Shown: positions 42,691 to 60,720 of the stretch, in pieces
Position numbering within the stretch: position 1 is the stretch's first letter
Layout of the letters: each line of letters begins with the position of its first letter
Source: Pycnococcus provasolii
Lineage: Eukaryota; Chlorophyta; Pseudoscourfieldiophyceae; Pseudoscourfieldiales; Pycnococcaceae
Assembly (NCBI GenBank): GCA_938743325.2
Contig: OW568867.1
Span: 774,501-838,500 of the forward strand
DNA: 64,000 nt
Direction of reading: 5' to 3'
Notes under the pieces: generated by a model
Told to the model about the DNA's origin: nothing
The model's database searches: none
The model's input: the letters and a program-made list of their open reading frames with translations, nothing else
Position numbers and translations under genes: made by a program

Positions 42691-43155
42691 ATGCCTGAAC
42701 TGGACAACTCAAAACCACCGCTATTTGTACCGTCTAAACGCTCTTACAACGATTTCGTTCTGGCTTGGCGCGGTCACTCGCGAAAGCGAAACTACTCGCA
42801 GTTGTTGGAGTGGGCAGAAAATCCGGACAACGCACCGGAAGCACTCACTCAACAGCAGCAGACGTGGAACTCACGATTTTTCTCCGACTTGGTTGACTCC
42901 CTGTATAACGGAGAAACTGATGACGCTGCCACCGCAGCTCTTGCAGCCATGGATGCGGCGGCAGACGACGGAATGCAGCTTTGGACAGCTCTAAACAAAC
43001 GAACCCAACTGCGGCAAGTACATCGTCGACAACGCATCACCATATACACTCACTGGATCCTTGCACCATCTCTACGACGTTCACCAGCTCGAGAAACCGA
43101 AAGAGATCGGCGGCATAAAAAAGGATTCCACCATCAAATGCACGCACGTTGGTAA
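42691..43155 (+). CDS. Gag-like leading frame of the copia element
   Basis: Open frame of 154 codons starting at an ATG, located between the LTR leader and pol. Its first 100 or so residues (helical, acidic) fit a copia gag N-terminus by position; sequence similarity is weak. Part of an old-virus-like element and shorter than a normal gag. Confidence 0.5.
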   Translation: MPELDNSKPPLFVPSKRSYNDFVLAWRGHSRKRNYSQLLEWAENPDNAPEALTQQQQTWNSRFFSDLVDSLYNGETDDAATAALAAMDAAADDGMQLWTALNKRTQLRQVHRRQRITIYTHWILAPSLRRSPARETERDRRHKKGFHHQMHARW

Positions 43156-46129
43156 GATCGACTTTACCACGCACGAAGGCGCGCTAACAGTTTCCAATGC
43201 ATATTATTCGGCAGAACTCGCTGGGTTCGTAAGCATCTTGAGTTACATAGTGATGCGCGATGCTGGCGCTGTGCTTGTCGATAAAAAGACGGATCCGTAC
43301 ATACTCCTGCCAAACAGCGACATTATGTTTCTAAAGGAGATGGACTCCGGTCACCTTTACACCGAGCTCACATCGCTTACGAACGTAGACGAAGCCTACC
43401 CGACGCTGCCTATCAACGCAGGGCAATGGCACGCACGACTGGGACATCTGCACCCACGCCGCATTGAAAATTTTCCCAGCGACGCTGAGCAAATCCCGGC
43501 TGATGCAGAGTGTCCAGCCTGCCAGTTGCACAAGTCCAAACGCACTCGCCGCGAACCGGCGCAATCAGTCACCGAGTACAAGATAGGGGAAGTCTGGAGC
43601 ACGGACGCAATCCGACCTGGCACCATCAGCGTATCGGGCGTCACCACGTTCTTCCCTTTCATCGACTATGGCAGTCGTTTTGTGTTTGATTATTACGCCG
43701 TCTCGAAGGAAATCACAGAGTACATGGCAATACTCAAGCAATGGGTATCTGACATTCACACCGTCCGCAACACAGTTAACCCCGACATAAACTGGCCGAA
43801 GCAATTACGAACGGACCACGAACAACTTTTTATGCATCCGGATTGTGTCGCTTTCTTGAACTACCATGGCATCACTGCAGTCCCGGTACCTCCGTACCAG
43901 CACCACAAAGTCGGGCGCGTCGAGCGCCGATACGGCATTATTCACCAACACGCTCTGATCATGATGGAAACCGCCCAGATCTACGACCGCGTCTGGCCAG
44001 CGGCATACAGCTTCGCAGTCTTCCACACCAACTCTGCGAAACAATACCCATCTGCGATCGTACATGGAGTTAACACTGACTCCCAGGGCATGTACCCATC
44101 ACCAAATTCGATGTTTCTTAAGCGCGAAACCGACTTGAATTTCACGCGAATCCCATTTTGCGTCTCGTACGTCCATTTCGAGCAGCATTCAAAATTCCAG
44201 CAGCGCAGCAATCGTGGCGTCTTCGTCGGCTATAGCAAAGATGTCCCTGGCTCCTACGTAATCTGGCAGCCAGACGAAAATAAAACAAAGCTCTCTGCTC
44301 ACGTTACATGCATGGAAAAACTTAAGGAAGACGGCACGCTGCTGCATCCCGCACACATCTTTTACCCAGAACTGGCACGCACGAAAGTATCTAAATCGGC
44401 ATGTGTTTTCAACATTGGCACAAACATTGGTCCAGGCGGTCGGCGCATCGCCAAAACATCCGTTACACACGTGCCGAGTACGAATCTACTGGAATTGGGC
44501 GGCGAACCAGATACACATTCCCAGAAGACAACGCACTCAGCACTCGATTACGCATTCGCTACCGACGTCAGCGAGACCCCCGGATTCGAACCTCGCACGT
44601 ACGAGGAAGCCATCCACTCGAAAGACCATGAACGATGGATACTTGCCATTGACAGTGAGTTAAACTCGCACCAGCTAAACGGCACATGGATCGTCATAGA
44701 CAACGACGGTACTGTTAAGAATTTAATTGGATGCAAATGGGTTTTCAAAATCAAGCTGAATTCTGATGGATCGATCGCTCGATATAAAGCTAGACTAGTA
44801 GCACAGGGTTTCTCGCAGATTCATGGCGTGGATTACAGCGAGACATACGCCCCGGTGGTTCAGTACCAAACATTACGAACGCTACTGGCGATCTATTCCG
44901 CACGTGGCTTCTACTTCGGACAAATTGACGTGGAGACCGCATACCTTTACGCTTTGGTACAAGAACTAATCTACATGAGGCCGCCGAAAGGAACAAACTA
45001 CGGGCCTAATAAGATCTGCAGATTGCTGAAGTCTCTCTATGGCCTTAAACAGGCTGGGAGAAACTGGTACCTAGATCTGAAGGATTACCTAGTCGAGCTT
45101 GGCTTTAAACCAGGGGAAGTTGACATTGGGATGTACTCAGCTGCTGTCGGAACGGAGAACGAAATTTGGATTTTGGTCTATGTGGATGACATCATCTTCG
45201 CATCCAAGAACGAGCAGACAAAAGACATCTTCGCCGGACACCTCCGCAAGAAGTACAGAATTACCGAACCAGCACAACTGACATGGGCACTCGGAATGAA
45301 GGTATCGTTCGCAGCAGATGGCATCATCCTCACTCAAGATCTTTACGTGAGTAAGATACTTGAAAGGTTTGGTTTCACATCGGCCGCAAAATCAGCGACG
45401 ACTCCGCTGGCCCACGGAACGACACTTACGCGGGCAGATGAAGAAGACGCTGAGGCGCGTCACCTCGCCCAGCAGTTTGTGGGTGCAATCCTCTACGCGG
45501 CAGTCATCAGCAGGCCAGACCTGTCATCGACCGTACGAGCGATGTCACACGTCATGTCTAAACCACCATCGAACTTCGAAGCCTGCAAGAAGCATGTACT
45601 GCGGTACCTTTCTGGAACAATCAACCGAGGAATAAAGTACAACACCAACTCGAACGTACCGCTCAAGCTCATCGGATACTGCGACGCAAGCTGGGGAGAC
45701 AACCACGAGAATCGCCGATCCACATCGGGATACATTTTCTTCTTGAATGGTGGACCGATTTCATGGGCGTCTTACCTGCAGACAACCGTAGCCTTATCAA
45801 CAGTTGAATCTGAAGTCATGGCACTTACGGAAGCTATCAAGGAGGCTATCTACATCCGTCGACTTCTGGAGTCACTTGGCGCAGCGCAAGAAGGTCCGAC
45901 TATCATTTACACGGATTCAACAGGAGCTGAAGCGCTCGTCGATCATCCGACGTCGCACAGGCGAACGAAACACATCGAGATCCGACGCGAGTTCATCAAG
46001 TATCACATCGAACACGAAACGGTCAAAATCGAACGAGTGAGCACAAAGGATCAGCTCGCTGACATCATGACGAAGCCTCTGAGGCAAGACATTCACAATT
46101 ACCTCGTGCAAATGATTCTGCACGGTTAA
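43061..46129 (+). CDS. Copia pol: integrase, reverse transcriptase, RNase H
   Basis: Long frame of about 1020 codons. A pre-integrase segment with WHARLGHLHPRR and a CPAC pair comes first. The integrase core follows (about 43600-44060), then the reverse transcriptase with KARLVAQGFSQIHGVDYSET, LYGLKQAGRNWY and the YVDD catalytic box (about 44690-45330), and finally RNase H with CDASWGD, STVESE and TDSTGA (about 45670-46090). Integrase before reverse transcriptase is the Ty1/copia order. The frame is long and well conserved, in keeping with the young age given by the LTRs. Confidence 0.93.
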   Translation: MHHLYDVHQLEKPKEIGGIKKDSTIKCTHVGKIDFTTHEGALTVSNAYYSAELAGFVSILSYIVMRDAGAVLVDKKTDPYILLPNSDIMFLKEMDSGHLYTELTSLTNVDEAYPTLPINAGQWHARLGHLHPRRIENFPSDAEQIPADAECPACQLHKSKRTRREPAQSVTEYKIGEVWSTDAIRPGTISVSGVTTFFPFIDYGSRFVFDYYAVSKEITEYMAILKQWVSDIHTVRNTVNPDINWPKQLRTDHEQLFMHPDCVAFLNYHGITAVPVPPYQHHKVGRVERRYGIIHQHALIMMETAQIYDRVWPAAYSFAVFHTNSAKQYPSAIVHGVNTDSQGMYPSPNSMFLKRETDLNFTRIPFCVSYVHFEQHSKFQQRSNRGVFVGYSKDVPGSYVIWQPDENKTKLSAHVTCMEKLKEDGTLLHPAHIFYPELARTKVSKSACVFNIGTNIGPGGRRIAKTSVTHVPSTNLLELGGEPDTHSQKTTHSALDYAFATDVSETPGFEPRTYEEAIHSKDHERWILAIDSELNSHQLNGTWIVIDNDGTVKNLIGCKWVFKIKLNSDGSIARYKARLVAQGFSQIHGVDYSETYAPVVQYQTLRTLLAIYSARGFYFGQIDVETAYLYALVQELIYMRPPKGTNYGPNKICRLLKSLYGLKQAGRNWYLDLKDYLVELGFKPGEVDIGMYSAAVGTENEIWILVYVDDIIFASKNEQTKDIFAGHLRKKYRITEPAQLTWALGMKVSFAADGIILTQDLYVSKILERFGFTSAAKSATTPLAHGTTLTRADEEDAEARHLAQQFVGAILYAAVISRPDLSSTVRAMSHVMSKPPSNFEACKKHVLRYLSGTINRGIKYNTNSNVPLKLIGYCDASWGDNHENRRSTSGYIFFLNGGPISWASYLQTTVALSTVESEVMALTEAIKEAIYIRRLLESLGAAQEGPTIIYTDSTGAEALVDHPTSHRRTKHIEIRREFIKYHIEHETVKIERVSTKDQLADIMTKPLRQDIHNYLVQMILHG

Positions 46130-53300: not shown

Positions 53301-56300
53301 GGTCTCGCGCGCTTCGGAATGCTCTTCCGCGCGCACCGCCACGCGCAAGCTGGTCACGCGTTCGTTCGATGATACGCATCGACAGCATGCGAGACGCTTC
53401 GAGTGTCTCCGCAGACGAGTCGCTGCCAGTAAACAGATTCTTGATATTGAGCACGTTCAAAAAATTTGTAGATTGCTCCTTAGCACGACCAGCTTGATTC
53501 GCCAGCGCGGCTTCTAGCTTGTCGTCGTCTTTCGTCTTGATCTCGTTCGTCGTAATGCGGTCGTAAATTCCCGAGCACATTTCTTCCGAGGCGCCCGGCG
53601 TGTCTCCATCTCCCTTGTTCATCTTGACGAAAGATTCCTTGGACATCTTATTCTTAATCTGGCTGCTGTGCGCATCGGTGTTGAGCATGATCGTCGCGAA
53701 GGCCAGCACATACGCCGTGTCTGCACTTGGGAAGCTCAGCGGACCTTCGGGATTGCAGTCGCAGTACCGTGCCGCAAACTTTTCCATGAGGCGATCAATC
53801 TTCTGCGCCTCACCTGGCAAGCGGAAGCTACTCAAGAACAGGCGAATCGCCTCGTCAAATACTATGTTGTGGTAATTCATGCCATCCTGGAATTTGTGCA
53901 TCACCTCGATCTCTTCGTCGGTGTGACCGCCGAGGTATTCACCGATAGCGGTTTTTACGAGACCCGGCGTGTCGCGAAGCCAGTGCGCAATCTCCTCTGT
54001 GGTTTCACCACATAGCCCCGAGGCAATCGCTTGCTTCACCGCCTTCTTCGGCTTTTCCTTGAACAAATCCACGATTGCCTGAAGAGCGGTCTTTTGAGCC
54101 TTAAGCTCCTCATATGTAGCGGCTTCCGGTGTGCCCCTGTGTGACGACGACACTTCGTGGTCATCAACACCAACCGCACTCGTCGATCGAACCCGACTAT
54201 TCGTAGAGCGTAGGCGCGTAGCGTTCAGGTCGTCGTCACGAAGCGTAGAGTCGCTCAGCATCGAGGCGTGCGCAAATGCACCCACGCCAGAAGAGCCAAT
54301 ACTAACGCCGCTCGCGGCATCATCCACCTCAACCTCGCGAGCACTTTCGTCGTCGTTGGGTTCGTCGTCGTCGCCAGTTTCTATCTCTTCCACCGTCGGT
54401 GGCTCGCCGAGGCTGCCAGCCCACGCCGAGATGGAGTACAGCAAACTTAGGCAGCACTGCAGGGAAGATCGGCGTAGGGTCGCCACCGCTACTCCAACAC
54501 TAAGCTCCTCCACCACGCCGGCGCTTCCATTGGACATGGGCACCGCGGCTGTCGCCTTGTTTGCCGAAGCCGCCATGCCACCGCCAGTGGAAAATGGCAC
54601 ATCGGTCATGCTGTTGGCCGACCCGCCTATTGCGATCGCGCCGCTTGGCGCGACGAATATACGCCATTCGTAGCCGCGCGCGCAGCTAAGTCTTCCCAGC
54701 GCGACACCCGTGCGCTCAAATAGGTTTGCACCCTCCACGTCGCAGTCGTAGTTCACGAATAGGTCCGCCAGCAGCTGCGGCTCGGCACAAACGCGTTTCG
54801 CGATGCGAAGGCTGCTCGCCACCTGCGCTGCGGACGGCGTCGCAGAGGAATTTTGTGCCGCACCGGCACTCCCCTGGTCCTGTGGCGTCGCCGCCTCGAG
54901 TGATCGCAGCAGCACGAGTGGGTAGAAGGCGCCAACCTCAGGCTTGAGCGCAGCGCGAAAGGCTGGTTGGAGAAGCAGAGATCCTAGCAGCTGGCGCACC
55001 TGCTGGAACACCGCGGGTATTGGCGATAACGCGTTTCGCAGTAGGCAGACGGAAAAGGAGGGTCGCAGGGCATGCACAAGTGGTAGGCGCGCACGAACGC
55101 CCCACGCCTCCGCTCCGTCAAGCACCTCGCGCACAAGCTCGAGCGCGAGGCGCTTTGAGCGAAGTGCAAGAGGATCCACGCCATCGATCACTCCCGCGGA
55201 GCTCTGTGGAGACTGGGCACTCTTGAGCTCTCTTGCGCTCAGCTTGCACAGCGAGCGCAGCACAAGAGCCAAGTCACGCTCCTCGACGAGTAGCTCACGA
55301 GGCGAGTCTGGTGCGCGCTCTGCTGTTGTCGCTGTCACGTTGTGCGAGGAAATCGTCGCGTCGCGCTCCGTGCCATCTCCCTCCGACTCGAGCGTGGCTG
55401 TCAGCGCGGCGCCACCTTCCAGGCTCCGAGCCTGCTCAAGAGCTGCCTCTAGCGCACCCATATCAGCCGACTCCGCCGCTCGGCTCAGCTCGCGCTCGTT
55501 TGCGACGTCCTCTGCACGCAGCTGCTGCGTCGGCGCCGCCGGCTCGACGATGGAAGGCGGTGCAGAGCGGGGTGTAGGAGGTGTGGGAGTTGCGGCTGGC
55601 GGGTCGTTTCCTTCCACTTCCGCGACGACGCGTGCCACCGCATCGGCCACAACCTGCGAAACCACTTCCTCATCACTTGTTGCTGCTGCTGATTCTGCTG
55701 CTGGTGGTGGTTGAGCTGGAGGAGTTGGCTTAGGCTGCTCCTGCTGTGCCGTGATCGCAGCTGGCGCCTCCTCTTGTACCATCGGCGGTGGCGCGGGTTG
55801 CTCGCGCTGCCGTGCACTTGCCATCACCATCGACCTACTCAGCGTTCCAAGAATCATTGAGAGAGCGTTTCTGCTTGCGCTTGTCACCTGCTCGCCCTCC
55901 GCCGCGAGCAAGGTATTGTGCACGAAACGCACCGCCTGCAAGAGCGTCTCACCGTGCAGCACTAGCGTGCGGCTGGTTGCGCATGCGAGCATGGCGCGCA
56001 CGGCAGTGAGCTGAACCACCTCGACGGTCGCCTCGCTTGCCGCCGCGACGACAGCGACACACAAGCACACTGGGTGGGTGCCGCTGATATCCGCCTCCAT
56101 GAGCGGCGCCTCTCCCCTGATCACGGCAGCGCCGACAAGCCATGCCACGCCGTTTAGCGCCGTCTCTGCCAATTTCGGGTGCGCGCTCTTCACAGCCGTG
56201 TTGAGCACTTTTAGAATCGCTATGCTTTGCTTGTCGTTCATAGGGACTCCTTGAGGAGGAACGAGTTCGTCAGGTTTGCTCTTGAGTTGCTGCTGATATG

Positions 56301-56412
56301 CGCGAGCCACACTGTTGACGATTCTGACCTCCCTCGACCGGATCAGGCCATCGCTGTCGCTGACGATCCGCGCGACGGTCGACGCCAACGTCGACGCCAG
56401 ATTTTCCGCCAT
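50392..56412 (-). CDS. BIG-type Sec7-domain ARF guanine nucleotide exchange factor
   Basis: ATG at 56412, one exon, 2006 residues. The N-terminal 700 or so residues are helical (DCB/HUS-like region) with Pro/Gln- and Thr/Pro-rich insertions. The Sec7 domain lies at about 770-970: TPGLVKTAIGEYLGG, FRLPGEAQKIDRLMEKFAAR with the catalytic glutamic finger, and LAFATIMLNTDAHSSQIKNK. A large HEAT/HDS-like helical C-terminus follows (LDAGVRELTVRCVCQLVSSR is typical of BIG HDS1). BIG GEFs load GTP on ARF1 at the trans-Golgi network. ARF1 itself is at 29833-31188. Length matches the family. A TTAGGG tract lies 87-101 bp upstream of the start. Confidence 0.93.
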   Translation of the reverse strand: MAENLASTLASTVARIVSDSDGLIRSREVRIVNSVARAYQQQLKSKPDELVPPQGVPMNDKQSIAILKVLNTAVKSAHPKLAETALNGVAWLVGAAVIRGEAPLMEADISGTHPVCLCVAVVAAASEATVEVVQLTAVRAMLACATSRTLVLHGETLLQAVRFVHNTLLAAEGEQVTSASRNALSMILGTLSRSMVMASARQREQPAPPPMVQEEAPAAITAQQEQPKPTPPAQPPPAAESAAATSDEEVVSQVVADAVARVVAEVEGNDPPAATPTPPTPRSAPPSIVEPAAPTQQLRAEDVANERELSRAAESADMGALEAALEQARSLEGGAALTATLESEGDGTERDATISSHNVTATTAERAPDSPRELLVEERDLALVLRSLCKLSARELKSAQSPQSSAGVIDGVDPLALRSKRLALELVREVLDGAEAWGVRARLPLVHALRPSFSVCLLRNALSPIPAVFQQVRQLLGSLLLQPAFRAALKPEVGAFYPLVLLRSLEAATPQDQGSAGAAQNSSATPSAAQVASSLRIAKRVCAEPQLLADLFVNYDCDVEGANLFERTGVALGRLSCARGYEWRIFVAPSGAIAIGGSANSMTDVPFSTGGGMAASANKATAAVPMSNGSAGVVEELSVGVAVATLRRSSLQCCLSLLYSISAWAGSLGEPPTVEEIETGDDDEPNDDESAREVEVDDAASGVSIGSSGVGAFAHASMLSDSTLRDDDLNATRLRSTNSRVRSTSAVGVDDHEVSSSHRGTPEAATYEELKAQKTALQAIVDLFKEKPKKAVKQAIASGLCGETTEEIAHWLRDTPGLVKTAIGEYLGGHTDEEIEVMHKFQDGMNYHNIVFDEAIRLFLSSFRLPGEAQKIDRLMEKFAARYCDCNPEGPLSFPSADTAYVLAFATIMLNTDAHSSQIKNKMSKESFVKMNKGDGDTPGASEEMCSGIYDRITTNEIKTKDDDKLEAALANQAGRAKEQSTNFLNVLNIKNLFTGSDSSAETLEASRMLSMRIIERTRDQLARGGARGRAFRSARDPSLARPMLDAIGRSLAQALLSTVEDRRAGAGNAGPSSTQSAEGSATGVSNATDGSTTVSSSSISEEEQSMVLCLDGVCVLARISSALGLGYLRDETVVGLVKCTGLDPDHLVPPEALTTSNIAACECVLTLASELGTALADSVVAWRAVLGALSTMEMYRQLLLDELGDVAEYHHNGQDGAAAPAPAVASTPATTRPGVPSPAHSALSDGVLTESPAAAALASVGRFFTGRSAPAPTPQRRAPPTAKEMRARKKSQLERSKIAPWLLRPALSVEMDRVYQRSSRLDGDAIVAFAKALCAVSVAELQLAESTDGDAPAKSTREKQVPQARTYSLQRLVEVAHHNLNRIRLVWSKMWVPVGKHLVAAATASGSASHALYAVDSLRQLTAVLLSRDSLSGYHFQAEVLRPFVEIMKFRSLDAGVRELTVRCVCQLVSSRGSNLRRGWQTVLRFMCLAVADTSEHVAAPALTCVEEVVECFFKADQRDASDVNASPSRQRRASLVPEEYFGDVLACLSACAHSAELNGHDDLGKRGISAFGTLGMRLGSCPEASSNEHHWLPLLGSLAEVAMDTDAPARLDIPESSAPSTPASPEKTPRGVAPPSPVSPGREDDPASSARAAHRRRAGDMLLKLLEQNGTLLGADTWQRLSERVLVPLAETSSMAVLLPRIVGAYAICPASAAAFPNVLPRLSSTAASLACAAAEATEANMGSNTWRRVGDLVVGHAESGVATFASLAKACAACGDKSESLWNSLISAASSVAGSFAAGGASNAAAAEAELWRARVITAVHTTAGTSLPTAAAKALLERLDAARAKTVDALQMASSSSSEVGGDSALLVWRTVLNEVDTSRIGCLERWSVSEARRGPSTTLDEAGVALSVALSEAVSSAAATIREHGGGDETAYEPHAEVAAYALHVLADASRCADRPFAMVLSKTYTAIIELSSRTNVPELRSAVAQLLLSTRVVNLIMAQR

Positions 56413-56498
56413 TATTGGTGGGCGTTTGTTTTTGATGAGGAGAGGGGGGGAGGGAAAGGTGGGGAGGGAGGGACCAAGAATTGGGCGCTGCTGCGTTG

Positions 56499-56513
56499 TT
56501 AGGGTTAGGGTAG
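56499..56513. repeat. Telomere-like TTAGGG motifs upstream of the BIG GEF
   Basis: TTAGGGTTAGGGTAG, 87-101 bp upstream of the GEF start codon (reads CCCTAA on the coding strand). Confidence 0.7.
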
Positions 56514-56560
56514 TAACGTCGTTTTTACACTAGGTAAACTGATCCGTTCGATGGTGATCA

Positions 56561-56592
56561 CATTATCGTATTCTCGAGAGAATACGATAATG
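56561..56592. repeat. Perfect 15-bp inverted repeat downstream of the Fanzor
   Basis: CATTATCGTATTCTC, 2-nt GA spacer, then the exact reverse complement GAGAATACGATAATG. It begins 56 bp after the Fanzor stop codon (minus strand). It may mark the element end, form the scaffold hairpin of a guide RNA, or act as a transcription or processing signal; sequence alone does not decide. Confidence 0.9.
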
Positions 56593-58558
56593 CTTGTAAC
56601 GTGCCAAGGAACGCGGCAACAATCAAGCACTTTCACGAAGCACAAAATCACGGCACAACAAGAGGGGCAGGAGGCAGCAGCAGTAGTAGAGGAGGTGGAG
56701 GAGGAGGCGGTCGGCGAATGTGCTGGGGTCGCACTCCGTTCGTGTACTCACCGTGAAATGCCATCCAGATGTTTCGCGCGGCGTTCACATCACGATTCCA
56801 CGTTCTATAGCAAGTTGTGCACTGGCATAGCTCGTAGACATTCTTGACGTGGAGGCCGACTCCATCCTTCCATGATGCCATTCGCGGGTGTCTCAGCACG
56901 CTTCCGCCTTGAATTTGCGTGCACCATGAGCACTTTTTCGAGGTTTGAAACTCGTCGACGAGTACGACACGCCCCTTCTTCTTGACGATGAGGTGTCGGC
57001 GGATTTTCGATGCTGGTCCCGGCATTTGTCCCTTCATCGACGCAGCGAACCTCGCGTTTCCGAACGCGACGACAGAGTTTGTTCCGTCTGGGCAGAGTCT
57101 ATTCGCAATATCATCAAGGGTTCTTTGCTGCTTCATGGCCGTATGGAATCGGAGCCGTGCCCACCGCCGAGGAGCGGCGCGCACCCTCCACTCCTCGTCG
57201 AGACACTCGAGACGAAGCCTCACGGCGTTCTCGACTCGATCAAGGCTTGGCGTTTTCAAACTTCGATCAACGCTCAGCAATCGGTCTCGTAGGTCATTGT
57301 CGGCCACCAGCTCCTGCATCCACGTCTTTCTCGTTTCTCGTGCTTCAGTAAAACCACATTTGTGGTAGTATTCTTTCTTAGACACATGCCAACTCGTCAC
57401 GCCATTCCACGCTGTCACCACGGAATTGTGCCCGGGATCCGCCGCCGTGACATGGTCGAAATCGACGTTTTCAGGGTAGTCATCATTAGGCGAAGCATCA
57501 TCAGGATTCGCGATGCGTTCTCTCCTCCACTTCTCGACGATGACGTGGACTTGAACGCCATCTGTGCGCACAAATGCGGCGAGCTCGTTGCCCTCCACTC
57601 TCGTAAACTTGTTCAAGAACGAGTTCTTGAACATGTCCTGCCAATTTGCTGTATGAAGCCACGGTTCCAATTCGGCAAGCACTTCGTCATCCCACTCTGC
57701 ACCTTCTATGAAGTTTCGTTCGCGCCTAACATGCCTTACCATGTCCTTCACGCATTTGTCGTCAAGTGCGATGAACAATCGGCGAACGTCGTGCACCGGA
57801 GCATACGGAAATCGAGGGTACAGCAATCGAGCTGGGTCCGCCAGCTCGATGGTGGTCATCATCATCGATCGGTACCGCAACACCGCCTCTTGGCTGCTAT
57901 CCTCCGGCGGAACGAGGGCTCGCTCCGCGTCCACGATGGGGCCAAAACCCGCGGGAGGGTTCATTTGTGCGTTCTCGATCACGCGATTGACTTTGCGCGC
58001 CTCTTTTTTTGACAGCCCCCACTTCGCGCGCATGTACGTCACGCGGTGATGCGGCGTGGCGTACGCAAGGTAGTTTTTAAAGGCGGTAACGTACCCAGCG
58101 CATGCGTACTCGAGCGAGTAGTTGATGAACTCCCTCGACGTCACCACATGATCATGATCATCGACGAGCTGCGCGTACCTTTCGTACGTCTCCATGATGT
58201 CGTCGTGGCCTAACATGGCTCGTGCAGATCCGTGCGACGACACGAGGTTTGCGGCACGACGCACTCGTGTTTGGGTTAGCGTGGGAATGTCATCATGGAG
58301 TGGCGTCCCGTCATCCTCCTCTTGGAGGACACGCGCGTAGTGTAGATTTAGTAGCAGAGACACCTCGTGCATGATTCTAGACACGCGCAGCACGTGCGTT
58401 TCAATGATGTCTCGCCACGCATCGTTCACGAGTGCACTAAGCAACCCATGTCGGTACGTGCGCGTGTTTAGCACCTCTTCCTCTCCTTGCTCGTTCCAAC
58501 GCCACTTCCTCTTCATTCGACTCCGTGCGGCACTGTCGCAATCACGACCAAAGCATTA
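56588..58558 (-). mobile_element. Candidate Fanzor-bearing DNA element (boundaries tentative)
   Basis: The nuclease gene is flanked by short, imperfect terminal inverted repeats: TAATGCTTGTAACGTG at 56588-56603 and, on the opposite strand at the other end, TAATGCTTTGGTCGTG at 58558-58543 (12 of 16 matches). The first lies at the edge of the 32-bp palindrome; the second ends next to the stop codon of the topoisomerase fragment. No second transposase frame is present between them, so movement would need help in trans. The short repeat could be chance. Confidence 0.45.
56648..58516 (-). CDS. Fanzor1-like RNA-guided nuclease (eukaryotic TnpB homologue)
   Basis: ATG at 58516 (in-frame stop just upstream), 622 residues. 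The last 280 form a TnpB-type RuvC nuclease: RuvC-I FDHVTAADPGHNSVVTAWN with Asp360; AFGNARF near 484; RuvC-II VVLVDEFQTSKKCSWC with Glu522; a zinc ribbon with Cys529/532 and Cys566/569; and RuvC-III NRDVNAARNI with Asp576. So the catalytic D-E-D set and all four zinc cysteines are present. The N-terminal 330 residues are helical and charged, as in Fanzor1 proteins of algae, other protists and large DNA viruses. Characterised Fanzors cut DNA guided by a RNA encoded at the gene's 3-prime side. The Pro/Leu-rich tail is read from a GGA-rich repeat and may overlap such an RNA. No TnpA-like transposase is seen. Confidence 0.9.
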   Translation of the reverse strand: MKRKWRWNEQGEEEVLNTRTYRHGLLSALVNDAWRDIIETHVLRVSRIMHEVSLLLNLHYARVLQEEDDGTPLHDDIPTLTQTRVRRAANLVSSHGSARAMLGHDDIMETYERYAQLVDDHDHVVTSREFINYSLEYACAGYVTAFKNYLAYATPHHRVTYMRAKWGLSKKEARKVNRVIENAQMNPPAGFGPIVDAERALVPPEDSSQEAVLRYRSMMMTTIELADPARLLYPRFPYAPVHDVRRLFIALDDKCVKDMVRHVRRERNFIEGAEWDDEVLAELEPWLHTANWQDMFKNSFLNKFTRVEGNELAAFVRTDGVQVHVIVEKWRRERIANPDDASPNDDYPENVDFDHVTAADPGHNSVVTAWNGVTSWHVSKKEYYHKCGFTEARETRKTWMQELVADNDLRDRLLSVDRSLKTPSLDRVENAVRLRLECLDEEWRVRAAPRRWARLRFHTAMKQQRTLDDIANRLCPDGTNSVVAFGNARFAASMKGQMPGPASKIRRHLIVKKKGRVVLVDEFQTSKKCSWCTQIQGGSVLRHPRMASWKDGVGLHVKNVYELCQCTTCYRTWNRDVNAARNIWMAFHGEYTNGVRPQHIRRPPPPPPPLLLLLPPAPLVVP

Positions 58559-59041
58559 CTAAGAAGGGCACGGAACGGGGAAGATGGTCGCCGTTGACTT
58601 TTCGATGGAGCCCACGTACGTGTCCGGTCGGAGTAGGATGTGCTCGAGCTGAGTTTTTTTCTGGTACCTCTCTTCGATGGACATGTCGTCTGAGGGCGTA
58701 GGATCCGCGGCGTTCGCCTTGGCGGATGCAGCGAGAGGTTTCGTAGCAGCAGCTTTTGGTTTCGCGGACGCAGGTCGCGCAACTGCTGAGGACGTTGCTG
58801 AAGCTTTCGCCGACTTGGGAGCAGATGCCGCAGCCGCCGAGTTTTTCTTAGCAGCAGAAGCAGCAGCAGTTGAGTTTTTCTTAGGAGCTGCCGTTTTCTT
58901 CTTCGATGCTGCCTGCTTAGGAGCCGCAGCCGCAACAGGGGGTGCGACATTCTCCTGCGATGCCTCCTCCATCGGGAAGTCAAAACCAGAGCCGCCAGAG
59001 CCACCACCCCCGAGGAGTGCGAGCGCGTCGTCGAGGTCCAC
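58559..59041 (-). CDS. DNA topoisomerase II, 5-prime fragment only
   Basis: ATG at 59041, 160 residues. A Lys/Ala-rich N-terminal extension of 115 or so residues leads into MSIEERYQKKTQLEHILLRP and DTYVGSIEKSTATIF, the unmistakable start of the eukaryotic topoisomerase II ATPase region. Normal topoisomerase II has more than 1200 further residues; here the frame departs after TIF and stops within seven codons. The next sequence downstream on the same strand is the Fanzor gene, 42 bp away, and beyond it the BIG GEF, so the rest of the gene is not in this window on the downstream side. No good splice donor is visible at the end. Either a truncated duplicate or a gene broken by the element or a linked rearrangement. 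Confidence 0.75.
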   Translation of the reverse strand: MDLDDALALLGGGGSGGSGFDFPMEEASQENVAPPVAAAAPKQAASKKKTAAPKKNSTAAASAAKKNSAAAASAPKSAKASATSSAVARPASAKPKAAATKPLAASAKANAADPTPSDDMSIEERYQKKTQLEHILLRPDTYVGSIEKSTATIFPVPCPS

Positions 59042-59601
59042 GATTGCTTACAGTACAAGTGCTGGCGAGCGAGGACGTGAAGAATGAAGAATGAGGGCGG
59101 GAAAGCAGGCAAAGCTGTCTGGGACTGCTTTTGGTTGAGAGAAAAAAAGGCGAGAGAAAAGGGAGAGGGAGAAAATAAGAACAATATTGAGGAATGTTAA
59201 CAATAAGTACCAGTAGGGTAGGTTTTAGGGGGGGCCAGTATTGCCAATGAAGGTCATCTTTTACACAAACCGAAATTAAAACCAAAAGTAGGTCTCCTGC
59301 TCCAGTAACCAACTATAGTCAACAGGGAGGGAGGGTGGGAGGTTGTTTGCGAAGCAAGCAACCAACAGCAAGAGTGGATACGCGCGCGCAGCCCTAAGGG
59401 AGAGGCCACTCGAGGGTCTCGAGAGGGGCCGTGACCCTCCTGGCGGCCGCCCAGAACCAGCAGCGCGAGCGACTCCCCCCAATCAAAAACCCCAATTAAA
59501 CAAGTAGAACTGAAGATTTGGCTCGGTGGGATGATTTACCAAACAGGGTATGACACAGGTGAAAGACACTCGCATAAATAAAGGTGGAGAAAACGATTTT
59601 C
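59042..59601. other. Intergenic between topoisomerase fragment and NPPF methyltransferase
   Basis: 560 bp between divergent genes. A TAGGGTAGGTTTTAGGG telomere-like motif lies at about 59214-59230, and a small palindrome with CTCGAGGGTCTCGAG near 59408-59422. No coding frame is supported. Confidence 0.55.
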
Positions 59602-60720
59602 ATGTCCGGCGGCGTCGGCGCATCCCGTGCTGTTCTGCGCAAGAGGAGGCGGAACGCAAAGAAGGACGATAACCGTGCGGAGAGGAGGAAGGCGCCGCCG
59701 CGACAGCAAGCGGACGACGACGACGGCGAGGGTGACGACAAGCGCAACGCGAATGCGTCAACATCAAGCCCTGCGAACCCATCACCTGTCGTGATGCAAA
59801 AGCGCAAGCGCAAGACAAAAAAGGATAGCGACGACAAACAGAACGCGAAGTCGTCAACGTCAAGCCCTGCTAGCTCTGTCGCACCACCGTCAGTTACCGT
59901 GCTGCCTTGGGAGTGCAGCAGGTCAGACCACTGCGAGACACCACCCGAGGCTGTCAACGACGCGGCTCGTCTGATAGATGCCATGGCGTTGGGAGGTGCC
60001 GTGCCGACGTCGCGCGACAGCGTGCGAGTGTACGACCCTTATTTCTGTCAGGGAGCTAGTCGCCGTCATCTCGTAGCACTTGGATTTTCTTCCGACAATG
60101 TCAAGCACGAGCCGGTTGACTGCTACGCGGAGTGGGCACGACTTGACGGGCTGCCCGCCTGCGATGTTCTGGTGACGAATCCGCCATTCTCTGGCACGCA
60201 CGCCGAGCGTCTTTTTCGACATTTGCACCGCCTGCAGACGAAAGGGCAATGCCCAAGCTTTCTGGTGCTGCTTCCAAACTACGTGTACACCAAGACGTTC
60301 TACAAGGAGCTGTATCTCTTCGACGATGCTGCGATGCGTGCGGCCGACGCAAGGCGTGGAAAGAAGGCGCAGTCAACTGCACGGACTCAAAATACACCCT
60401 CGCCATGCTGCTTGTTCGCGCCAGCGTCACGCTACGCATTCTGGAGTCCTGTACGCAATGCGGGTACGGAAGAGAAGGAGGGTAAGAAGCGCAGGCACAG
60501 CCGTGCGGATCTGGGATATCGCAGCATGCCATATCACTGCTTTTGGTACGCCTACATGCGTCCAAAAGCTGGCGAGGCGAGCAGCGCCGCGCAGGTGCGG
60601 CTGATCGACGCATGGCGAAAGGTGCGCGGCGAGGAGGGTGGGAATCTTGTGGCACATTACGGCCACCTTCCCAACAGCCTGAAAGATGAGTGGGATCCGA
60701 CGCGCGTTTCGCGCATGTAA
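59602..60720 (+). CDS. NPPF-motif SAM-dependent methyltransferase
   Basis: First ATG at 59602; 372 residues. The N-terminal 100 residues are basic and Ser/Asp-rich (RKRRRNAKK, QKRKRKTKK), probable nuclear localisation signals, and include a partial internal duplication (59737-59778 resembles 59834-59875). The catalytic part has VYDPYFCQGASRRHLVALGF as a motif-I equivalent and CDVLVTNPPFSGTHAERLF; NPPF is the (D/N)PP(Y/F) catalytic motif of amino-methyltransferases acting on adenine N6, cytosine N4 or glutamine. The C-terminal region with PYHCFWYAYM has no name I can give. The substrate is unknown; a nucleic-acid target in the nucleus is a reasonable inference from the basic N-terminus. Confidence 0.78.
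   Translation: MSGGVGASRAVLRKRRRNAKKDDNRAERRKAPPRQQADDDDGEGDDKRNANASTSSPANPSPVVMQKRKRKTKKDSDDKQNAKSSTSSPASSVAPPSVTVLPWECSRSDHCETPPEAVNDAARLIDAMALGGAVPTSRDSVRVYDPYFCQGASRRHLVALGFSSDNVKHEPVDCYAEWARLDGLPACDVLVTNPPFSGTHAERLFRHLHRLQTKGQCPSFLVLLPNYVYTKTFYKELYLFDDAAMRAADARRGKKAQSTARTQNTPSPCCLFAPASRYAFWSPVRNAGTEEKEGKKRRHSRADLGYRSMPYHCFWYAYMRPKAGEASSAAQVRLIDAWRKVRGEEGGNLVAHYGHLPNSLKDEWDPTRVSRM

Follow-up and report, generated by a model that had tools for sequence, protein, structure and literature searches.

An intact Fanzor1-type nuclease gene with truncated and deleted copies in the genome of the green alga Pycnococcus provasolii

One contig of the chlorophyte Pycnococcus provasolii (OW568867.1 of assembly GCA_938743325.2, here contig C7) carries a long open frame that a preliminary description, made from the letters alone, had named a Fanzor nuclease. 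The locus raises the question of what kind of nuclease this is, and of how a transposon-type gene comes to stand unbroken, and to be copied, in a genome like this one. We analysed a window of 64,000 nucleotides (positions 774,501 to 838,500 of the contig, forward strand), and positions below are those of the window unless another contig is named. The frame encodes a Fanzor1-type protein with a full catalytic set, it lies in an element of which both ends were defined, and the element has left a set of intact, truncated and deleted copies in the genome. We favour, with moderate confidence, the reading that the RNA-directed enzyme of this intact Fanzor1 gene would take its guide RNA from the right end of the 2-kb element that encodes it, and that the element was spread by one-ended, Helitron-like copying through a protein encoded elsewhere.

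The gene lies on the minus strand (56648..58516), a point on which the preliminary description was silent, and runs as a single frame of 622 codons without a break, the plus-strand reading of the same bases having 13 stops. The residues listed in that description were all found as it had stated them, on the minus strand: the RuvC-I catalytic aspartate D360 (57437..57439), the RuvC-II glutamate E522 (56951..56953), the RuvC-III aspartate D576 of a WNRD motif (56789..56791) and a C4 zinc ribbon formed by cysteines 529, 532, 566 and 569 (56810..56932), with a fifth cysteine, 564, close by. In section 23 of PMC10711439, Fanzors are set apart from TnpBs by DPG in RuvC-I and by a glutamate six residues ahead of the zinc ribbon; the window protein has D360-P361-G362, and its E522, in this alternative position, is followed by six residues and then by C529. 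The Fanzor signature given in the abstract of PMC3627910, D-X(125,275)-[TS][TS]-XX-[C4 ZF]-X(5,50)-RD, is also present, with 164 residues from D360 to T525, the string TSKKC, and five residues from C569 to R575-D576. For SpuFz1 of Spizellomyces punctatus, an excerpt of PMC10432273 lists D383, N385, E541 and D606 as the metal-binding residues. In the printed alignment, the distance from the glutamate in LLDEYKTS to the aspartate in YWNRD is 65, equal to that from 541 to 606, and therefore E522 and D576 correspond to E541 and D606, while a DPN/DPG column places D360 opposite D383. A misalignment of the triad with the catalytic residues was looked for and not found.

By profile searches, the only Pfam domain above its cut-off in the window protein is the Cas12f1-like TNB domain (PF07282; E=1.5e-10, 41.5 bits against a cut-off of 26.3), the NCBIfam TnpB model scores 29 bits, far under its cut-off of 100, and the protein searched alone against the PDB gave no Fanzor at E up to 1. 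A first search of 5.8 billion proteins (7,998 candidates scored) found one relative, P0001, at E 4e-8, and a search with residues 290-600 found two further metagenome proteins (E 5e-5 and 1.5e-3); two of three such protein searches scored part of their candidates, and the statement that there is no further relative holds among the candidates scored. Among viral contigs, a scan with alignment A4 gave 33 candidates, one of them confirmed: L063, a full-length Fanzor1-like protein of 671 aa on a 4-kb putative viral IMG/VR contig. The same kind of scan confirmed none of 56 candidates with alignment A1 and none of 84 with A5, gave no pattern match with P0002 as the query, and with L063 as the query returned, among 4 candidates, only L063 itself. 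An independent profile of three relatives (the two metagenome proteins and L063), with the window protein left out, scored the window protein and P0001 at 77.8 bits each and a paralogue on contig C4 at 66.3 bits; at E up to 10, it reported none of 200 shuffles, none of 35 other long frames of the window and neither of two Fanzor2-type frames. The A6 profile, made of the three relatives, the window protein and the C4 paralogue, matched in the PDB the Fanzor1 of Parasitella (PpFz1, 2.1e-47), SpuFz1 (2.1e-40, profile positions 66-601) and the Fanzor1 of Guillardia (GtFz1, 4.9e-25), and matched the mimivirus Fanzor2 L79 at 6e-4. AlphaFold models of the whole protein and of residues 290-601 had mean pLDDT values of 40.0 and 42.3, too low for use. 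Foldseek on the second model put two Parasitella Fanzor states, the mimivirus Fanzor2, a Cas12f and LaTranC on top, a ranking that we give little weight because the model is of low confidence, E is 6e-3 or worse and the query TM is at most 0.22.

Multiple alignments bear on the individual residues. In alignment A2, E522, D576 and cysteines 529, 532, 566 and 569 are invariant in all five sequences; D360 is not, owing to a misalignment of P0001 and P0002 in its vicinity. P0001 (1,011 aa) was omitted from A3, A6 and A7, since in A1 and A2 its long insert had shifted the RuvC-I column. In A6, where L063 is included, D360 falls in an invariant DP column (its counterpart in L063 being D402-P403), E522 and D576 are likewise invariant in 5 of 5 sequences, and so are three of the four cysteine columns; through the A6 profile, D360 aligns with SpuFz1 D383. 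P0004 and P0005, two near-identical frames described below, were kept out of A6 and P0005 also out of A7, the near-identical C29 and C8 copies were omitted from all protein alignments, and the Fanzor2-type proteins from A6 and A7. The assignment of D360, which draws on the multiple alignments and the DPG motif, is weaker than that of E522 and D576, because the profile-only and hhalign matches span about residues 420 to 605. The DPG motif, the alternative glutamate and the profile matches support a Fanzor1 type for the window protein, nearer to Fanzor1 than to Fanzor2, and its C-terminal half falls inside the TnpB/Fanzor/Cas12 group by the profile searches; the name given in the preliminary description is supported. 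The protein is predicted to cut DNA under RNA guidance.

The element that holds the gene is 2,044 bp long (56524..58567, minus strand); its left end, starting CCTTCTTAG, lies at 58567 and its right end, closing with CCTAGTGTAAA, at 56524. The stretch of the element ahead of the ATG is only 51 nt. Both ends were defined from copies: an internally deleted one on C8 has the pair, and a truncated one on C29 has the right end; three extra bases past it, to 56521, are shared by C7 and C29. Pattern searches with up to 3 mismatches found the left end on C7 and C8 only and the right end on C7 and C29 only; the right end on C8 has a 7-bp insertion. A hairpin with perfectly paired 15-bp arms and a loop of 2 nt (56561..56592, minus strand) lies 37 nt before the right end, and no other perfect hairpin of the window combines arms of this length with a loop of 10 nt or less. 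Of 42 inverted pairs, the 25 longest include no terminal inverted repeat joining both ends, and an 8-bp match of the ends in inverted orientation is no more than chance gives (107 of 2,000 shuffles). Solely by analogy with its location in known Fanzors, the guide-RNA scaffold is predicted to lie between the 3′ end of the ORF and the right end (56524..56760, minus strand). The right-end RNA folds no better than its shuffles (z -0.62), and Rfam gave no match over 56300-58700 at E up to 1. The right flank (56504..56523, minus strand) is the predicted guide.

The window is gene-dense, with 77% of it in frames of at least 250 codons, stop to stop, and a Sec7-domain gene adjoins the Fanzor gene in the 1.0-Mb contig. 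Other repeats are present as well: a dispersed repeat of about 300 bp (59221-59519) has at least dozens of genome copies, most at 87-100% identity among the matches listed, and a Copia-type polyprotein frame of 1,022 codons with reverse transcriptase (PF07727) occupies 43061-46129. About 1 kb to the left of the Fanzor element, a 378-aa frame (59584-60720) has an NPPF motif that we take to be like that of DNA adenine methylases; it gave no Pfam match at E up to 1.

A search for further copies, which the preliminary description had proposed, covered the genome of 32.3 Mb in 46 contigs and found truncated, deleted, paralogous and fragment copies. Family sequence lies at eight places, on C7, C29, C8, C4, C3, C18 (two) and C35; the right end is defined in three of them (C7, C29, C8) and the left end also in two (C7, C8), and C3, C18 (two) and C35 hold four pieces, 92 to 228 bp long, with neither end. 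Only the window holds a full-length copy, the other copies found being truncated, frameshifted or fragmentary. The copy on C29 (124451-125998) is 5′-truncated, cut at residue 150, and keeps the right end; its 99.7% identity over 1,548 bp shows a recent duplication, and its five nucleotide changes (dN 0.0028, dS 0.0061 over 472 codons) are too few to conclude on selection. The copy on C8 (661718-662498) is internally deleted, hence non-autonomous, with both ends kept. The C4 paralogue is a frame of 366 codons in which 49% of 320 aligned codons are identical and DPGH, VDEY and WNRD are kept; dS between C7 and C4 is saturated and not computable. Since the triad is kept at this identity, constraint must have lasted long on the lineage. 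The preliminary description had read the intact frame as a possible recent arrival, which was not borne out, the paralogue speaking for an older presence of the family. Two frames on ENA contigs, P0004 (96% identical; contig of 1,345 bp) and P0005 (98%; 1,191 bp), depart from the window protein by an amino-terminal stretch that differs and by a frameshift; being near-identical and yet truncated or frameshifted, they indicate that similar decayed copies occur in other assemblies.

A second family of Fanzor2 type lives in the same genome. The genome search with PF07282 gave C8:191129, C11:658469 and C22:391623, which score above the window protein, and C32:138192 just below the cut-off (25 against 26.3 bits). 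The C22 frame has the mimivirus Fanzor2 L79 as its closest solved relative (E 2.1e-24). A right end, closing with GCTTTAAACTGTAA (CTGTAA), is common to C22, C11 and C32; on the left, C11 and C32 break off at different points, and an insertion divides the C32 tail. Together with C7, C29 and C8 of the first family this makes six copies with a defined right end, among which neither C4 nor C8:191129 is counted, each standing as a single copy from which no end can be defined.

How, then, could the element have been copied? We consider it likely that it is mobile. In known Fanzors, according to an excerpt of PMC10432273, the RNA comes from the end region of the element, with the flank supplying its last bases as the guide. 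Here, by analogy, transcription of the right end would give a guide RNA ending in flanking sequence, with the bases from 56523 downward as the guide and the right end and hairpin as the rest of the RNA; the enzyme would cut matching sites that lack the element, and repair would copy the element in. A Helitron-type protein might supply the nicking and copying, and copying from the right end, often stopping early, would produce copies with a right end and without a left one. For the Fanzor1 elements of Chlamydomonas, which keep their right ends, lose their left ends and have internal deletions, Bao and Jurka proposed one-ended rolling-circle transposition (PMC3627910, in part). We take the one-ended route as the likeliest because the kept right ends, lost left ends and internal deletion seen here match those elements, the pattern resting on few copies with three defined right ends. 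For a TnpA of the kind that marks IS200/IS605 or IS607 elements, PF01797 (Y1) and PF00239 (serine recombinase) gave no match in the genome; these models match 5 and 10, respectively, of 14 control genomes. One Helitron-type ORF, an open frame of 2,305 codons, stands on C23; a comparison with the Fanzor ends, covering this ORF past its first 0.9 kb and 1.4 kb beyond its stop, found only shared words of 9-13 nt. At C7, C8, C11 and C32, no flank words are shared beyond chance that would indicate target duplications. The copy set offers a small natural test bed for Fanzor copying where no TnpA was found.

The right flanks also contain telomere-type repeats. CCTAACCC begins 13 nt (C29 and C22) or 15 nt (C7) beyond the right end and is absent at C8, C11 and C32, that is, it occurs at three of the six copies with a defined right end, and these three come from two families. 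The repeats lie at 56499-56510 of the window, where they start from the 14th base of the predicted guide, near 4442 on C29 (L009) and at L056:1881 on C22. Such clusters number 19 in 152,335 bases on either strand, the three flanks included; a chance per flank taken as 0.002 to 0.02 gives 1.6e-7 to 1.5e-4 for at least three of six, for a motif chosen after looking, and telomere-type repeats are common in the genome (8,159 dodecamer matches). We find it doubtful that two Fanzor lineages settle by interstitial telomere repeats, with guide RNAs carrying telomeric sequence and a tie to homing or repair; if true, it would be a role or target for Fanzors that we did not meet in the portions of the literature covered. 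Telomere-wide targeting by the C7 guide was considered and rejected: with 0-2 mismatches the 20-nt flank finds only itself in the genome, and the two further places that have 3 mismatches are no more than the 3 given by the reversed control.

Pieces of host genes stand at the left of Fanzor copies on C7 and C32 (topoisomerase II) and on C29 (leucine-rich repeat). In the window, a duplicated 5′ fragment of a DNA topoisomerase II gene (58584..59113, minus strand) ends 16 bp left of the element. Such fragments occur at three places (the window on C7, C32 and C37), two of them directly left of Fanzor copies of different families, and the long copy of the gene is on C41. On C32 (L061 1710-2100), the topoisomerase II fragment and the Fanzor2-type tail share one frame across their junction, and farther along the tail is frameshifted. 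On the minus strand of C29 (L009:4582-7440), a leucine-rich-repeat ORF is joined in frame to Fanzor residues 151-622, giving a frame of 953 codons stop to stop with its first ATG at the 18th codon and the triad kept. It may be a new gene in the making; guided cutting by the fusion is doubtful because the first 150 Fanzor residues are missing. A literature search for Fanzors with leucine-rich repeats returned, by title, reviews or unrelated studies only.

These junctions bring in another account, in which the same Fanzor1 gene was spread by host repair, breaks (some perhaps made by the Fanzor) being patched with pieces of the genome, which would also explain the scattered topoisomerase II and Fanzor fragments. 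We treat it as a tentative alternative that deserves some weight. The topoisomerase II fragments directly beside Fanzor copies at C7 and C32, the 16-bp filler at C7, the four short Fanzor fragments without either end and the lack of target duplications at C7, C8, C11 and C32 all point that way, and the C29 junction is, by eye, compatible with a few bases of microhomology. Against this, the right ends are precise and common to three copies in each of two families, and C8 keeps both ends; we disfavour random repair because it is not expected to respect precise element ends.

A dying remnant, with a frame that is intact only through its recent last copying and a protein that is neither expressed nor active, is unlikely in our judgement. 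It would fit a genome in which one copy is full-length and the rest are truncated, frameshifted or fragments, and an element so short ahead of its ATG; the kept triad of the C4 paralogue, with the long constraint that it implies, argues against it. Nor do we think it at all probable that the gene is a domesticated nuclease used by the host and no longer mobile: the single intact copy, the intact frame and the gene-dense region would agree with such a role, and against it stand the precise ends in common with the non-autonomous copy, the recent truncated copy and the near-identical truncated frames on other contigs. An ordinary bacterial TnpB, through contamination or recent bacterial transfer, has next to no chance of being correct, for beyond the zinc ribbon of TnpB type it is contradicted already by the glutamate in the Fanzor position and by the 1.0-Mb contig with its adjoining Sec7-domain gene, and further by the low TnpB score and by Fanzor1 proteins as best solved relatives.

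We return to guided cutting with one-ended copying as the preferred reading, and compare the locus with known systems in its light. Here an intact Fanzor1, in an element whose ends are mapped, shares one small genome with a non-autonomous copy, a truncated copy, a paralogue and a Fanzor2-type family. The elements CRe-1, 2 and 3 of Chlamydomonas (Helitron2 group; PMC3627910) resemble the window element in a kept right end, a lost left or middle part, the possibility of extra left sequence and a hairpin near the right end. They differ in ends common with verified Helitrons, multiple exons, high copy number and frequent target duplications (most CRe-1 and CRe-2 copies), whereas the window element has one frame and few copies, and the comparisons described above gave it no Helitron ends in common and no target duplications. 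Of the two-ended hairpins and asymmetric inverted repeats that characterise such Helitron2-borne elements, the window element shows a clear hairpin on the right, and the 8-bp inverted match of its ends is of chance level. Spu-1, the element of SpuFz1 in Spizellomyces punctatus (excerpts of PMC10432273 and PMC3627910), is also a single-ORF element, of about 2.1 kb, encoding 633 aa against 622 aa here, and its DP motif, alternative glutamate, zinc ribbon and WNRD aspartate align with the window protein; it has inverted repeats, unlike the window element as judged from those 25 longest pairs, and its guide RNA and CATA flanking motif are proven, whereas the guide RNA of the window is predicted. 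The Fanzor1 of Parasitella parasitica (PDB 9cf0) is the best solved match of the family profile, ranks first in Foldseek with the low-confidence model (E 6e-3), and is distant in sequence from the window protein. Fanzor2 of Acanthamoeba polyphaga mimivirus (TnpB-like L79, PDB 9b0l) is the closest solved relative of the C22 family, whereas the window protein is much nearer to Fanzor1; it is a further Fanzor1 of a known family, not a new kind of system.
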